Shown here: positions 3,276 to 20,700 of the stretch, piece after piece
How the letters are laid out: every line of letters begins with the position of its first letter
Numbering within the stretch: position 1 is the first letter of the stretch
Origin: Psococerastis gibbosa
Taxonomy: Eukaryota; Arthropoda; Insecta; Psocodea; Psocidae
Direction: 5' to 3'
Length of the DNA: 64,000 bases
Assembly: GCA_963971405.1 (NCBI GenBank)
Contig: OZ020486.1
Span: 3,968,001 to 4,032,000 of the forward strand
The notes under the pieces: model-generated
What the model was told of the DNA's origin: nothing
The model's database searches: none
Seen by the model: only the letters and a program-made list of their open reading frames with translations
Made by a program: the position numbers and the translations under genes

Positions 3276-3633
3276 CAGTGCGCATTCAGATCGACCATTC
3301 ACCCGAATTCTTCTGTTTGATCATCTGACTTGTACTTACTGTATATTCAATGACGCAATACACTATGTGACAGCTTGAAAGTCAGCGGATCGCGTCATCT
3401 TTTATTGAAAATTCTAACCTTTAATGTGACTACCTCTTCTTAACCACTTCACCACCGCGCCTTCGCCCTTGGCACCAAATTAACGGTAATAAACTAAGTT
3501 TTCTTCAAGAATTTTATGCGGCACACAATCTTTTAATATTGCCAAATAGCCCTCGAAATGGGCAGGCAGTTAAAAATATGTAAATGTTGACTTTGAGCTT
3601 TAATGACGTTATTATGCATTGTGTGGGCGATAA
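3276..3633. other. No gene recognised
   Basis: This is unique-looking DNA running into the first, most diverged satellite monomer. No coding or RNA features were seen. Confidence 0.35.
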
Positions 3634-5735
3634 AAATGGTCCATTTGAATGTATTTCTTATGAATACTTATGTTTTTCACTGACTGCAATCTTATGACGA
3701 GTCTGTTGGAAAATATGTAAGATTATTCATCTGCGAGCCTACCATGCCATTTAAAAATAGCTATATAACTTATGAATATGGTCCATTTGAATGTATTTCT
3801 TATGAGTACTTATGTTTTCTACTGATTCTACAATCTTATGATGAGTCTGCTGGAAAATAATGGAAAGTTATTCATCTGCAGGCTTTCCATGCCATTTAAA
3901 AATAACTATATTACTGATGAATATGGTCTCTTTGAATGTATTTCTTATGAGTACTTATGTTTCTTACTGACTGTACAATCTTATAATGAATCTGTTTGAA
4001 AATAATGGAAGGTTATTCATCTGCGGGCATACCATGCGATTTAAAAATAACTATATAACTGATGAATATGGTCTCTTTGAATGTATTTCTTATGAGTACT
4101 TATGTTTTCTACTGATTCTACAATCTTGTGACGAGTCTGCTGGGAAATATTGAAGATTATTCATCTGCGGGCATACCATGCGATTTAAAAATAACTATAT
4201 AACTGATGAATATGGTCTCTTTGAATGTATTTCTTATGAGTACTTATGTTTTTTACTGACTATACAATCTTATGATGAATCTGTTGGAAAATAATGGAAG
4301 GTTATTCATCTGCAGGCTTTCCATGCCATTTAAAAATAGCCATATAACTCATGAATATGGTCCATTTGAATGTATTTCTTATGAGTACTTATGTATTTTA
4401 CTGACTATACAATCTTATGATGAATCTGTTGGAAAATAATGGAAGGTTATTCATCTGCAGGCCTACCATGCCATTTAAAAATAGCCATATAACTCATGAA
4501 TATGGTCCATTTGAATGTATTTCTTATGAGTACTTATGTTTTCTACTGATTCTACAATCTTGTGACGAGTCTGCTGGGAAATATTGAAGATTATTCATCT
4601 GCGGGCATACCATGCGATTTAAAAATAACTATATAACTGATGAATATGGTCTCTTTGAATGTATTTCTTATGAGTACTTATGTTTTCTACTGATTCTACA
4701 ATCTTGTGACGAGTCTGCTGGGAAATATTGAAGATTATTCATCTGCGGGCATACCATGCGATTTAAAAATAACTATATAACTGATGAATATGGTCTCTTT
4801 GAATGTATTTCTTATGAGTACTTATGTTTTTTACTGACTATACAATCTTATGATGAATCTGTTGGAAAATAATGGAAGGTTATTCATCTGCAGGCTTTCC
4901 ATGCCATTTAAAAATAGCCATATAACTCATGAATATGGTCCATTTGAATGTATTTCTTATGAGTACTTATGTATTTTACTGACTATACAATCTTATGATG
5001 AATCTGTTGGAAAATAATGGAAGGTTATTCATCTGCAGGCCTACCATGCCATTTAAAAATAGCCATATAACTCATGAATATGGTCCATTTGAATGTATTT
5101 CTTATGAGTACTTATGTTTTCTACTGATTCTACAATCTTGTGACGAGTCTGCTGGGAAATATTGAAGATTATTCATCTGCGGGCATACCATGCGATTTAA
5201 AAATAACTATATAACTGATGAATATGGTCTCTTTGAATGTATTTCTTATGAGTACTTATGTTTTCTACTGATTCTACAATCTTGTGACGAGTCTGCTGGG
5301 AAATATTGAAGATTATTCATCTGCGGGCATACCATGCGATTTAAAAATAACTATATAACTGATGAATATGGTCTCTTTGAATGTATTTCTTATGAGTACT
5401 TATGTTTTTTACTGACTATACAATCTTATGATGAATCTGTTGGAAAATAATGGAAGGTTATTCATCTGCAGGCTTTCCATGCCATTTAAAAATAGCCATA
5501 TAACTCATGAATATGGTCCATTTGAATGTATTTCTTATGAGTACTTATGTTTTTTACTGACTATACAATCTTATGATGAATCTGTTGGAAAATAATGGAA
5601 GGTTATTCATCTGCAGGCCTACCATGCCATTTAAAAATAGCCATATAACTCATGAATATGGTCCATTTGAATGTATTTCTTATGAATACTTATATTTTTT
5701 TTACTGAGTATACAATCTTATGACAAGTCTGTGGC
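3634..5735. repeat. Tandem satellite, ~144-145 bp monomer, 15 units, with 4-mer higher-order repeat
   Basis: The anchor GTATTTCTTATGA occurs at about 3651, 3793, 3938, 4083, 4227, 4372, 4517, 4661, 4805, 4950, 5095, 5239, 5383, 5528 and 5673, a spacing of 142-145 bp. Monomers fall into variants: A (GATTCTACAATCTTGTGACG, GGGCATACCATGCG), B (GACTATACAATCTTATGATG, CAGGCTTTCCATGCC) and C (CAGGCCTACCATGCC). From 4517 the order is A-A-B-C, A-A-B-C, a near-identical 578-bp higher-order unit repeated twice; A-B-C precedes it at 4083-4516. The end monomers are most diverged, as expected for unequal exchange. Confidence 0.93.
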
Positions 5736-8440: not shown

Positions 8441-9800
8441 CACTACAGGTCAGAGGGAGCTTTGGCATCAACCTCTCTCGAGACATCCCAGTCCTTGGCC
8501 TTCCTCTGGCAAGCCTCCCCTGACACCGGTTCCGTGGTCTGTCTTCTGCCCACCATACTGGCTCTATAATCTTCATCATAGGTGAGCTGTTGCCTCTCGC
8601 AACACTTCTCTCCAGTTATTCCGGTTCTTGGTCTTTTGGTCTTCCTCTCCCAAGCCGCTACTAACATCTTGCGCAATGTTACCACCTCGACTCTCCATTG
8701 GTTCCGTGGCCTGCCTTGCCTCCTTCTTCCCCCATGCTAGCTCTATATATCTTCTTGCTCTGCGCTACAGCTTGGGGTGAGCTTTTGCCTCTCGCACAAC
8801 CTCTCTGCAGTTTTTCCGGTTCTTGGTCTTCCTCTGCCAAGCCGCTACTAACATCTTGCGCGATGTTACCACCTCGACTCTCCATCGGTTCCGTGGCCTG
8901 CCTTGCTGCCTTCTTCCCCCATACTAGCTCTATATTCTTCTTGCTCTGCGCTATATCCTTGGGGTGAGCTGTTGCCTCTCGACTCACCGCTCTCCAGTTA
9001 TTCCGGTTCTTGGTCTTCCTCTGCCAAGCCGCTACTAACATCTTGCGCGATGTTACCACCTCGTCTCTCCATCGGTTCCGTGGCCTGCCTTGCCGCGTTC
9101 TACCCCCTACACTAGCTCTATAATATTCTTGCTCTGAACTACAGCTTGGGGTGAGCTGTTGCCTCTCGACTCACCGCTCTCCAGTTATTCCGGTTCTTGG
9201 TCTTCCTCTCCCAAGCCGCTATACTAACATCTTGCGCGGTGTTAGCACCTCGACTTTCCATCGGTTCCGTGGCCTGCCTTGGCTCCTTCTTCCCCCGTAC
9301 TAGCTCTATATTCTTCTTGCTCTGCGCTACAGCTTGGGGTGAGCTGTTGCCTCTCGACTCACCGCTCTCCTGTTATTCCGGTTCTTGGTCTTCCTCTCCC
9401 AAGCCGCTACTAACATCTTGCGCGATGTTACCACCTCGACTTTCCATCGGTTCCGTGGCCTGCCTGCCTTGCCGCGTTCGACCCCCTACACTAGCTCTAT
9501 AATATTCTTGCTCTGCACTACAGCTTGGGGTGAGCTGTTGCCTCTCGACTCACCGCTCTCCTGTTATTCCGGTTCTTGGTCTTCCTCTCCCAAGCCGCTA
9601 CTAACATCTTGCGCGATGTTACCACCTCGACTTTCCATCGGTTCCGTGGCCTGCCTTGCCGCGTTCGACCCCCTACACTAGCTCTATAATATTCTTGCTG
9701 GGCGGTACAGCTTGGGGTGAGCTTTTACCTCTCGCACCACCTCTCGCCTGATATCCCGGTTCATGTCTTTCTCTGGCAAGTTGCCACTGACATCTTCCAC
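8440..9800. repeat. Minisatellite, ~188-bp unit, about 7 copies
   Basis: GGTTCCGTGG recurs at about 8527, 8699, 8887, 9073, 9262, 9448 and 9640 (steps 172-192 bp). Each unit also has AGCTTGGGGTGAGC, TTATTCCGGTTCTTGGTC, CAAGCCGCTACTAAC and ATCTTGCGCGATGTTACCAC. The first and last units are most diverged. The minus strand stays open over whole units (for example GQATEPMESRGGN), which suggests the unit was captured from the carboxy-terminal coding region of a LINE before amplification. I do not call a gene. Confidence 0.9.
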
Positions 9801-14793: not shown

Positions 14794-17700
14794 AAAGGCT
14801 AGACGAAAAGACAAAGAAGCGTCATCAAGTGGAGGGGAGGACCCAAAACTTTACCTAGAAGAGGCTGTTTTAGAAAGAAAACTTCAAGATATTGACCTTA
14901 AGGCGCTTGTACAGCTACCTGCAGGACTGGACTACAATGAGTGGCTTGCATCCCATAGTAAGTACCTGCTGAGGCTACTAAAATTAGATATCAATCTCTT
15001 CTTCTGCTTTTAAGTGCCTCTTCAATCGAAGATCATGACAATTGTGCAACCCCAGGACAAAAGAGTGCCCTGCCCAGAAAAGGCTGTGTTTTTAGCTTAT
15101 CCTGGCTCAAACTCGGTCCCCTATCTGTTCAGCTACCACTACGCGCTTCCATCATCACCACGAGGAGGTACAGATTAGGTATTTTTGCGTCTTGGCCTCT
15201 GAGACCATAATATATAGCATTACTCAGAAGTTCAGTTACTTTGAAGGCAAGTCTCAAGTTTATCGGGGTTAGAACTCATAAGCCATTCTTCCAACAAGTG
15301 TCGTAGTATATTTCTGACACCGCACAGAGCGTCCAAGTCAATATTCTTTTCCGTGCACTGCCTGTCCAGCATATGGATGGTCCTAGATGCAATGCACTTT
15401 TGGAATATTTACTGGTACGCTCTTGGTACCAAGTGTCCTGCCGCCTGACGAATATTTTAATGCCTGTGCGTATTTGTTTGTTTCAGCGATCGCGTTTTTT
15501 GAGCACGTGAACCTAGTGTACGGAACTGTCTCGGAGTTTTGTACGATGTCAGGGTGCCCGGACATGTCCGGGCCTGGACTCAGAACGTACCTGTGGTTTG
15601 ATGACAAGGGCAAGAAGGCCAGAGTCCCCGCCCCCCAGTATATAGACTATGTTATGACCTTCATACAGAAAACTGTTAGTGATGAATCTATTTTTCCTAC
15701 TAAATATGGTAAGTTACTTAACCATAATGTAATTATAATAATTCTTTATTATTCCCAATGGGCATGTTTCTGACCAAAGCATCCCAAATATAGCAGTGGT
15801 AATGAGAGAGTATACTCTACTTCGGTTTTTTTTTTTATTCCCAAGAAAAATACAATACAGAAATACCCAATTAGAGCTCCCATGCTTGCGTGAGGTACCT
15901 TATAAAAGTTAGGACGAAAATACAATTTTGGTGAACTTACATAGAAATTAATGAATATTAAATAAATACCGATACGTAGTTAGTTACATTTTGATTGGTC
16001 TTTGACCGGTTATAAAATTTTGGGCAGGGTTTGTGGCATGGGCTACACGCCAGTCTCGGCTTTGTATTACAGCCTCGGTACACGCACGATTTTTGTCTAT
16101 GCAGGAAATGCGTAGTTTGAAAACCACAGAGTCAACTTCAGAAAGATTGTTGAGTCTGGTGTGAAGCCTAAGCACGAGTTTTCCCGCGCCCAGAACTTCA
16201 ACGTCAAAAATCTTGTTGTTGACTCTGTGGTTTTTCAACTACACATTTGCAACAATGACAAAAATTGTCCATGACTCGCTTGTGTCAAGTCATCCGTGTG
16301 TACCGGGCCTTAATGAACGTCCGCTGTATCGGGTATTGGGGCTTGTCTTCATAGCGCATTACCACTTCCGTAATTCTTTCAGTTACTATTAGGGATTCTA
16401 AGATCCGCAGATATGCAACGCGCTATGAAACGGTGCGGCTGTCAATGCAATTCCACAATATATAATAATATAATAATAACGGTTATTCAGTGCCATGCCA
16501 TGCCACAAAGGCTACTTCAGATGACTTCACTCGCTGAGCTCAGCGTGAGAAATTTTCTGAAGGAGACTCAGACGCATTTGCTCCAATGATGGATTTCCGC
16601 GCGTTTCACCGGCGTCTGAATTGTCTTTGTGCAGTGGGCCTTCGGGTTATCAATAGAATATACAAATAATGAATGGTTGCATAATCATATTTCAGCAGGG
16701 ACTAATAATTAATTAATTCAAATTATTGGAATTGTTATAGGATAGTACCAAACTATAAGTTGAAATCATTGAATTTATAAACCAAATAAATCAGTCTAGA
16801 ATTTCATCCAATCAATCTAGTACTAAGCACTGACAACATTAACGTGAACTCTCTTTAGATAAGATAACCATTAGAAGCAGAGATCAAGATGATGATGTCG
16901 AAGACTGAAATACTGAGATGGCAATAGATATCGGCCTACCTCAATTACAAGGGTCTTTGTCTCGATGCAGTTAAACAGATTTATGTTATGCAAAAATGAA
17001 CCAAGCAGACATATGCTAAGAATTAGCGCTTGGCTCCTTTCTAAATAATACAGTTCAATTATCTACAGCACAAAGGCTGCTTTAATGAACCAATGAACCT
17101 CCCCCCCCCCTTGCTGCCTTGCCACCACCACCACCCCCCCCCCCCCCCCCCCCGTCCCCCTGGAATGCTTATGATGTTCTTACTGCCGCAGTGGCCATCC
17201 CATCTATATTCAAATCGCGATTACTGATTATAAACCTATGTGGACAATTTATTAAGCGAATATATGTATATGATATTCGATTCACAGGCTATTTGTTCCG
17301 GTTATACTAGTTATAGTCTGTTAAAAATTAATGATCCTTGGACCCCTGGATTCGAAATCAAATGAAAATGAAAATCAATTATTTCTATATTCAACAGTAA
17401 AATAAATAAATAAGGATTTTGTGTTCTATTACTAAGCCAACCTAGTGGACTTACAGTAGCTACAAAGCCCTCTCTTACACTCAACTAGGAAGGCCCGGCA
17501 CCGCCTGCTTTACATGCCCTCCGAAGCATGGCCAGAAAATGTAGGAAGTGCAGGACTCGAACCAACAACCTTTCGGGTGAAAGTCAGAGTCCGTACCATT
17601 ACTCTACATGTCTTTGACATTGTGAATGCGTGATAAACTTACGTTTAATCTGTGCCCTATAGTAAATTTACTTCAATTAGGATACGCACTATTAAACACA

Positions 17701-20700
17701 GCTGTTATACCTTCTTAACCTATCCTATAGGTACATTATCTTAGTTCCTCCAACTTATAATATGTGTGCTGATGCAAAGGTTTTCGGGTACTTGAGGGCC
17801 TTCGAGACGATTATGAGAAAAATTCTATGTTAATCGGTCCGAATCAATCGTCAGAAAGTTCCCACGACTGTTGTTCTACGTCCTGGCGTATCTGTACCAC
17901 TGTCACTTCTGGTAGGTAGCTTATCCTTGTGTAAATTGTTCTGATTTCAGATAATTACATCCCAAGTTACTTCGAATCAATCGTCAGGAAGATCCTACGA
18001 CTGTTGTTCCACTTTCTGGCGCACCTATTACACTGTCAATTCTGGCAGGTGGCTCTTCTGAACATGTAAACATAACTTCTTCTGGTTTCAGCTAATGACT
18101 TCCCAAGTTCCTTCGAATCAATCGTCAGGAAGATCCTACGACTGTTGTTCCACGTCCTGGCGCACCTGTATCATTGTCACTTCCGGGAGGTAGTTCTTCT
18201 GAATCTGCACGCGCAGCTCAACTGCGTGTTCGCACACCTCACCTTCTTCAACCAGACCTTCCAGCTTATCGAGCCTAAGGAGACGGAAATTCTCCATGAC
18301 CTGGTGGTCGCGCTGAAGATTCACCCTGATAGTGTAAGTTTCCCACTTTTTGAGGAGGTTTAAGGGAAAATTGAAAGAAGATATTGTTGTAGAGTTCTAC
18401 AGTATATAGGAGAGATGGAACATAATCCATAATCGTACTAAAGAAACACGAGTAGGTACTTAAAATGCAACCTTCAATTTTCAGTGTACCCTAAGTCTGT
18501 CACACATATATTATGTGTAATGATGGGTGTTACAAACAGCTTTCAATTGATACCCAACACGGCCCCTGCTTACATTTGAAAATCCCGAGATATCGCCTAA
18601 GTCCTCCAAAAAAGGTACTTTGCGTACCTATGCAGGACCCTAAAAAGGTTTGACCCCTATTTTGCAATAGGTTTTTTTTTACCGCACCTCAATATTCCCC
18701 ATAAAATAAGGGGGTGGTGTGACTGCTCGAAATCACCCTGTATATAGAATTCAAGTTGTTCATTGCTATATGGAACATCCCAGAACCTGTTTTTTTATTT
18801 TTTTAGGGAAAGTCTTCCCAAGTTGTCCGAAGTTATCTTTATCGGTCTCTCTACAGCCCTTGGTTGGTTCTGGTAACCCCAAACTAATTACAGTAGCGAA
18901 TTCGATTTTCGTGGAGGAATTCAGACCGTAAATTGTGTTAGCTGTATTGTTTATTCGTGCAAGCCTAAACTTCTATATAAGAGTGATATAACATAGCAAA
19001 AATATTATTTGATTTTCAGGTGCTAACTGCCTTTTCAATGGCAATGACTGGTTGGAGAAAACGCGACAGGTCGCACCTGAGCTTCAAAAAAATATTTTTT
19101 GGCGGGAAGCGAATGTCCATCCCCTCTAAATACAACTCTAAGTCTAAGCAGCCCTATCGACAACTATACCCCCACGCGTCCACCCACACATAGAGCACGA
19201 CCTTGTTGGCGCCTATCTTCGTTATTAGATAGATATAGGTCAATGTTAGCCGTCAGCTGTGATTGGATGGCAGTGAATGCCTGGAGAGAAGGGTGGGAAA
19301 TGCTATAGCCCCCCACCCCCGTCGGGGAGGTCCAAGATGGCCGCCATCACAATCAAGATGCCCCTTTTAGCTGTAGTAATAGATCAGATATCCGATTCAT
19401 CATATTTGAGAATGTGTACCCAGCTGAAAAGACATGTTCAGTATATTTTCGGTGATGGGGCTTCTTCTTCTTCAACATCTTCCTCCGGCACCTGCTGATA
19501 ACTATTTGCTTTCCGTGTCTTAAACCATTGCAGCTTCCTTCTCGCTAACATCACCACCAATCGTTAGATTGCACTCTGGACTCTCTTCATCACTTCATGC
19601 CTAATCATATCCTCTCTTGTCTTCACGTCTTTCCTTTCTTCATCCATTGGTCATTCTGTATAATTCTTTTACACTTGTGCTACGCTTGCTGAGCTGTTGA
19701 ATATTGTTTTGATTACAGGATAAGGAGGAAGTAGACGGGGGAGGTGTTAAGTCGGAGCAGCCTTCGAGCATAAAACCAACAGTGGCCTCTGAGGAGCCCT
19801 CTGCAATTGACAATACGACATTACACGAGCACTCTACCGAATTAGTAATAGCTACCGAACCAAAGCTCCTAGTATCCCAATTAGATTCCAGCAACCAATT
19901 ACAGAGGTTTGTATTCATCATTCATCATGAAACGGCCCTAGGCCTGTCAAGCACAACATCATGTAAGAGCAATAGAACAAAAAGTCTTTATTTATTTATT
20001 TATTATCCTTAATAGCTCAGCTAATCATACCTCATGTCAGTACATGTAGAGTTGTAGTAGTACGGAATCTGACTTTCACCCGAAAGGTTGTTGGTTCGAG
20101 TCCCACACTGGCTACATTTTCTTTCTAGTTGAGGGTAAGAGAGGGCTTTATAGCCCTAACTCCACCAGGTTGGCTTAGAAAAAAATGGAAAAGGTCCTTA
20201 TTTATTTATTTAAACCCCAATTGCGTGAGAGTGAGTCTTCATAAAAATCCCGCTTATGCCTCTGAGCGGTTTAATAAAGTTGAGCTGAACCAGCAAGGTC
20301 TTTTGTATAAGATGTTGAGAAATCGATCAGTAATATTGGTCAAACTGTCAAAGTTAATTTGTTTGAATGTGGGTATAAAGCGATTAATCAGAGATGTTTG
20401 CCAACCTTGAGACTTTCTCTCTCCTTTGACCTTTGACTTGGGACAAATTGTTTTTCTTTTATGTTACACTTTTACGAGACAATCGGGGGAGATAAACCTT
20501 ACTTGCGTAAAAAATCAAATATCACGACAGCGAACGTTTTGTAACTTGATTTCTAAATAAAATAAAAGGCCTTAAATAAATGTATTAACCATAATATTCG
20601 TAGCATTCTTTCATTATCACTAATACAGTTTCGAATTCCCTCCTGAAACAGTATTTTGGATGGATTCTATCTTTTGGCATATCCAGGCAATGGTCAGACG

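Follow-up and report, generated by a model that had tools for sequence, protein, structure and literature searches.

The gene of Psococerastis gibbosa which we take to be MOB2 carries, at the 3′ end of the intron 15709–18091, a head-to-tail array (17840–18203) in which the 5′ part of the exon that follows is present in three diverged copies, and it is highly probable that this array originated by a partial tandem duplication of the MOB2 exon and subsequently decayed. All positions refer to the window, the whole stretch of 64,000 nucleotides that was analysed, and the exons and copies described here lie on its plus strand. An earlier note on this DNA had described three head-to-tail copies in one MOB2 intron, and repeat search, TRF and BLASTN bear out this description. 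TRF reports a single array at 17840–18203 with a period of 141, 2.7 copies, 80% matches and a score of 450. When the window is compared with itself by BLASTN, 17840–18062 matches 17973–18203 (E = 3e-44) and 17840–17919 matches 18114–18193 (E = 3e-19). In register, the copies start at 17840, 17973 and 18114, so that the spacing of 133 and 141 bp given earlier is right. The exon starts proposed in the earlier note stand in part: 17951 and 18092 directly follow the acceptors of copies 2 and 3, respectively, but no exon starts at 17841. As the copy 1 region scores 110 against the exon, whereas the upstream intron reaches at most 29 in 200 single-base shuffles and 23 in its real form (15709–17799), a chance origin of the array is excluded. 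A possible fourth copy at 18801–18824 scores 23 against the exon, which is within the range obtained by shuffling the upstream intron, a longer sequence (maximum 29, mean 20), and is therefore treated as chance.

MOB2 is a gene of the NDR-kinase pathway. The joined reading of the upstream exon and the exon 18092–18333 matches the Pfam domain Mob1_phocein with E 1.1e-55, and the zinc-ligand positions are kept in the alignment with MOB1A, which places the working exon in the MOB family. Among solved structures, matches were obtained to human MOB1, yeast MOB1, yeast MOB2 and one putative MOB1, the best relatives being human MOB1A (E 2e-37) and yeast MOB2 (E 4e-33); the name MOB2 is our assumption, based on the earlier reading and on an apparent likeness to animal MOB2. 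Three other MOB-like matches are found in the genome, all of them on contig C13 and 40–49% identical. The upstream exon 15487–15708, which belongs to the Mob1_phocein match, contains both zinc-ligand cysteines and is bordered by an acceptor with a score of 8.3 and by the donor ATG/GTAAGT with a score of 10.7. Copy 3 is the intact MOB2 exon (18092–18333); it is open in phase, contains both zinc-ligand histidines and ends at the donor AGT/GTAAGT. According to PMC2684140, human MOB1 binds zinc through Cys79, Cys84, His161 and His166. The outer two histidines of the motif AHLYHCHF of the exon align with His161 and His166 of human MOB1A, and thus the two histidines affected in the upstream copies are zinc ligands, as had been claimed. 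One scan for the exon in viral contigs yielded 18 pattern matches, 0 of which were confirmed. The nested genes within human MOB2 that are described in PMC4394429 have, as described there, no bearing on the array.

Copy 2 (17932–18062) comprises the pyrimidine tract, the acceptor and the first 112 of the 242 nt of the exon, without the donor of the exon. It aligns gap-free over 131 nt with copy 3 (18073–18203), the acceptor included, and is identical at 113 positions (86%; 18 differences). An assembly artefact or a haplotype duplication, for which the tandem placement is the only argument, would hardly have left copies that are diverged by 14% (18/131), and we consider this explanation extremely improbable. 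A dispersed repeat is rejected as well, since the array was matched once in the 409-Mb genome by a search which scored the best candidates only. In copy 2 the codon for His166 is changed to Gln. On its right the shared block ends within the exon (TTCTTCTGAA). In copy 2, 10 bases that are absent from copy 3 come next (18063–18072), and these lead into the pyrimidine tract of copy 3, in which TTCTTCTG is found as well. The in-frame TAA (18067–18069) is located within these 10 unshared bases, and copy 2 is therefore closed by the junction, or by a change in the tail, and not by a mutation of an exon codon. Taken alone, copy 2 matches Mob1_phocein weakly (E 1.2e-4, below the Pfam cut-off).

Copy 1 (17840–17919) is an exon-derived remnant without an acceptor, in which 70 of 80 bases (87.5%) are identical to copy 3. 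The first 22 bases of the exon are missing and the homology begins abruptly at 17840; upstream of this position the reading frame runs into a stop, with eight codons between. The codon for His161 is changed to Tyr and a TAG (17913–17915) follows after HCHFW. Thus, each upstream copy has lost a different ligand histidine while keeping the frame up to its stop, as the translations given earlier implied. That both copies end in stops is likewise true, with the distinction that the TAG of copy 1 lies inside the shared block and the TAA of copy 2 just past its end at 18062. Copy 1 alone also matches Mob1_phocein weakly (E 0.02, below the Pfam cut-off). Where all three copies overlap (80 nt), copies 1 and 3 as well as copies 2 and 3 differ at 10 positions, and copies 1 and 2 at 14. 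The stretch 17920–17931 between copies 1 and 2 represents the tail of the repeat unit, which aligns poorly and can be placed by a gapped alignment of both copies; its 8 gap positions relative to the tail of copy 2 account for the spacing of 133 instead of 141. Judged from the sequences, a tail common to copies 1 and 2 suggests that one junction was formed once and that the array grew afterwards. The region 17841–18333 has a predicted fold of -132.6 kcal/mol, a value without shuffle control from which we draw no conclusion.

Further upstream the MOB2 intron contains an interspersed repeat which extends at most over 17459–17641, with most matches covering 17459–17614. Among the 40 of 1925 first-look candidates that were scored, 39 other places with 92–98% identity are listed. 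As a cause of the 5′ truncation of copy 1 this repeat is rejected because it ends ∼200 bp before the copy. By eye its reverse strand resembles a tRNA-derived SINE; ARAGORN called no tRNA in the MOB2 intron including the repeat. An inverted repeat, perhaps MITE-like, is seen by eye at 16100–16260 of the same intron (AAACCACAGAGTCAAC ... GTTGACTCTGTGGTTT).

The copies are homologous, exon-derived, adjacent and on the same strand of one gene, and the array is hence a tandem exon duplication. A duplication of the full-exon type would comprise the whole exon with both splice sites; copy 2 covers less than half of the exon and copy 1 is devoid of an acceptor, and the array is for this reason classed as partial. 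We suggest that a segment of ∼141 bp, which began shortly before the acceptor and included the first 112 nt of the exon, was duplicated in tandem to give three units. Only the 3′-most unit is continuous with the remainder of the exon and with the donor, and this unit therefore remained the working exon, whereas the other two units, without the rest of the exon, would have been intronic from the start. Copies 1 and 2 would then have drifted without coding constraint, copy 2 keeping its acceptor probably by chance and copy 1 being left with none. Another conceivable history is that the copies once encoded alternative zinc-ligand segments, as mutually exclusive exons, and died later. The reading frame, which is preserved through the shared block until the stops are reached, could be taken in favor of this history, but there is no deficit of amino-acid change (see below). 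In addition, copies of 112 of 242 nt without a donor could not, as they stand, have replaced the exon; owing to the stops and to the missing remainder of the exon with its donor they are no intact interchangeable segments. We therefore reject this history, which appears very improbable.

Local duplication is common in this part of the genome. Seventeen same-strand pairs of self-matches within 3 kb (E ≤ 1e-4) are found in the window when its two long arrays are left out, and 15 pairs remain in addition to the 2 which represent the MOB2 array. In a small background sample of 10 stretches (100 kb in all), arrays with a period of 40 or more occur in 2 of the 10. As separate observations, a tandem array with a period of 187 and 6.4 copies is located at 8581–9796, and its units resemble by eye, on the minus strand, stop-broken pieces of a LINE reverse-transcriptase tail (GRPRNRW...); a satellite-like array with a period of 145 (also 289 and 434) and 14.6 copies is located at 3629–5732. 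A 10-kb sample of the same genome (C2:1000001–1010000) consists entirely of one satellite with a period of 167 and 60 copies.

The changes in both copies were compared with a neutral simulation using kappa 2, uniform placement and the observed numbers of changes (16 and 10), a test of little power. In copy 2, 10 of 38 codons are altered in their amino acid against a neutral mean of 10.6, and in copy 1, 6 of 25 codons against a mean of 6.6. A stop arises within those codons in 33% of the neutral trials for copy 2 and in 30% for copy 1. Amino-acid change in both copies fits the neutral expectation, at the little power of this test. By the method of Nei and Gojobori, copies 2 and 3 show 16 differences, of which 11 are non-synonymous (dS 0.22, dN 0.14); copies 1 and 3, compared over 24 codons with omission of the stop codon, show 9, of which 5 are non-synonymous (dS 0.28, dN 0.10). 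As the working exon tolerates silent changes, dS is expected to exceed dN even if the copies are unconstrained. As the differences number only 16 and 9, a mild constraint on the copies may also contribute.

Copies 2 and 3 are identical over a run of 43 bases (17970–18012), that is from 20 to 62 nt into the exon part. Under random placement of the 18 differences such a run has p = 0.008, in one post hoc test; copy 1 has 4 changes in the 40 bases of the run that it covers. Gene conversion between the adjacent copies could explain the run, as could splicing enhancers common to both or some other constraint, or chance. In its most elaborate form a functional explanation would regard copy 2 as a selected decoy 3′ splice site which originated by duplication of the gene's own exon and tunes the MOB2 level via NMD, with the 43-nt run held identical because the same splicing factors read both copies; we attach quite a low probability to this idea.

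Splicing to copy 2 was evaluated with primate-type matrices, which were not trained on the genome of P. gibbosa. The first base after the acceptor of copy 2 is 17951 (TTGTTCTGATTTCAG followed by A), in the right phase, and the acceptor scores 8.5, compared with 9.4 for the real exon and 8.3 for the preceding native MOB2 acceptor at 15487. The earlier note had called this acceptor good and in the right phase; the phase is right and the score lies just below that of the real acceptor, but as evidence for use the kept acceptor is weak, because chance often keeps an acceptor and because two unrelated intronic AGs score at least as high. In simulated drift at 13.7% divergence the AG of copy 2 survives in 74% of the trials and scores at least as observed in 34%; an acceptor at least as good survives in 46% of the trials at 10% divergence and in 26% at 17%. 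The two intronic AGs are located before 16105 (11.5) and 16194 (8.5), and the copy 2 acceptor is the third among the 116 non-native intronic AGs. Among the 3404 plus-strand AGs of the window, 57 reach its score, itself included. The only donor-like site of copy 2, CAG/GTGGCT after 18048, scores 5.7 with a +5 position that is not G, below the 6.9 of the real exon's donor, and an alternative 3′ splice site is therefore likelier than a cassette poison exon. Of the 144 GTs in 15720–18339, the highest score (8.3) belongs to a donor-like site in copy 1, CTG/GTAGGT after 17911, and exceeds even that of the real exon's donor.

Joining 15708 to 17951 would truncate the protein inside the Mob fold, as the earlier note had claimed, with 264 nt between the stop and the following junction (18333). 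As a 98-nt cassette, copy 2 would shift the frame and lead to a stop 140 nt before the same junction. In either case the premature stop is located well upstream of a junction. NMD is expected for transcripts with a stop that far upstream of a junction, and the product spliced to copy 2 is accordingly predicted to be degraded. A regulated share of the transcripts might thus join 15708 to 17951, read the TAA and lower the MOB2 output through NMD. The near-native score and the phase of the acceptor, the position of the stop (264 nt, or 140 nt with the weak donor after 18048) and the 43-nt identity inside copy 2 are consistent with such an unproductive alternative 3′ splice site. Nevertheless, retention of the acceptor is not unexpected by chance, its score is equalled or exceeded by the AGs before 16105 and 16194, and the donor is weak, so that we regard regulated use of copy 2 as unlikely.

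Between the two readings that the earlier note had left side by side, a poison exon or simply decay, the partial copies without the exon's donor, the missing acceptor of copy 1, the stops, the different ligand losses and the amount of amino-acid change, which fits neutrality, favor decay; the poison reading draws on the retained acceptor and on one post hoc statistic. Some signs hint against pure decay, namely the 43-nt identity, the good donor-like site of copy 1, the excess of dS over dN and the in-phase acceptor of copy 2, which is slightly above the native acceptor (8.5 versus 8.3). We infer that the copies are without function and that the acceptor of copy 2 is at most a putative low-level cryptic 3′ splice site whose products would be removed by NMD.

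Two further regions downstream might also belong to the gene. A possible alternative last exon of MOB2 is located at 19020–19193 behind an acceptor with a score of 9.95 (TTATTTGATTTTCAG followed by G); it offers 57 open codons in phase with the donor at 18333, then a TAG, and would encode a basic peptide. Another candidate MOB2 exon starts at 19719, with an acceptor score of 10.1.

Degenerate exon-derived copies that lie head-to-tail in an intron of their own gene have been described before. According to PMC12343006, Exonize was made to detect unannotated or degenerate exons through matches in introns, and PMC9013439 gives the share of exonic bases with a homologue of at least 80% identity in the extended gene as 0.08% for Drosophila and ∼2% for human. 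Any given case is thus infrequent, yet of a known kind, and no difference of kind was found between the cases as described in these two papers and the MOB2 array, which has three partial units and stops in two of these. The Drosophila gene Gr39a, as portrayed in PMC2204066, resembles the MOB2 array in having tandem exon duplicates, some with nonsense mutations, for which conversion is suspected; however, the Gr39a copies are large alternative exons and nearly all have a donor motif, whereas the MOB2 copies are partial and lack the donor of the exon. Copy 2 shares with the poison exons reported in PMC11357089 and PMC11632617 a stop which is expected to trigger NMD if spliced in. On the contrary, those poison exons are described as conserved and seen in RNA, whereas copy 2 is known from DNA and has no strong donor. 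For a duplicated exon that is recognized and introduces stops, a paper on U2AF1 states that transcripts with both exons are generally down-regulated by NMD (PMC5224494). A literature search which did not include the species name found nothing on a MOB2 poison exon.

The array thus represents one more decayed partial exon duplication, and it is of use mainly as a caution, since gene prediction by homology may annotate either of the two upstream copies as an exon. Were splicing and conservation of copy 2 to be demonstrated, the array would offer a simple example of a regulatory splice site that arose by exon duplication.
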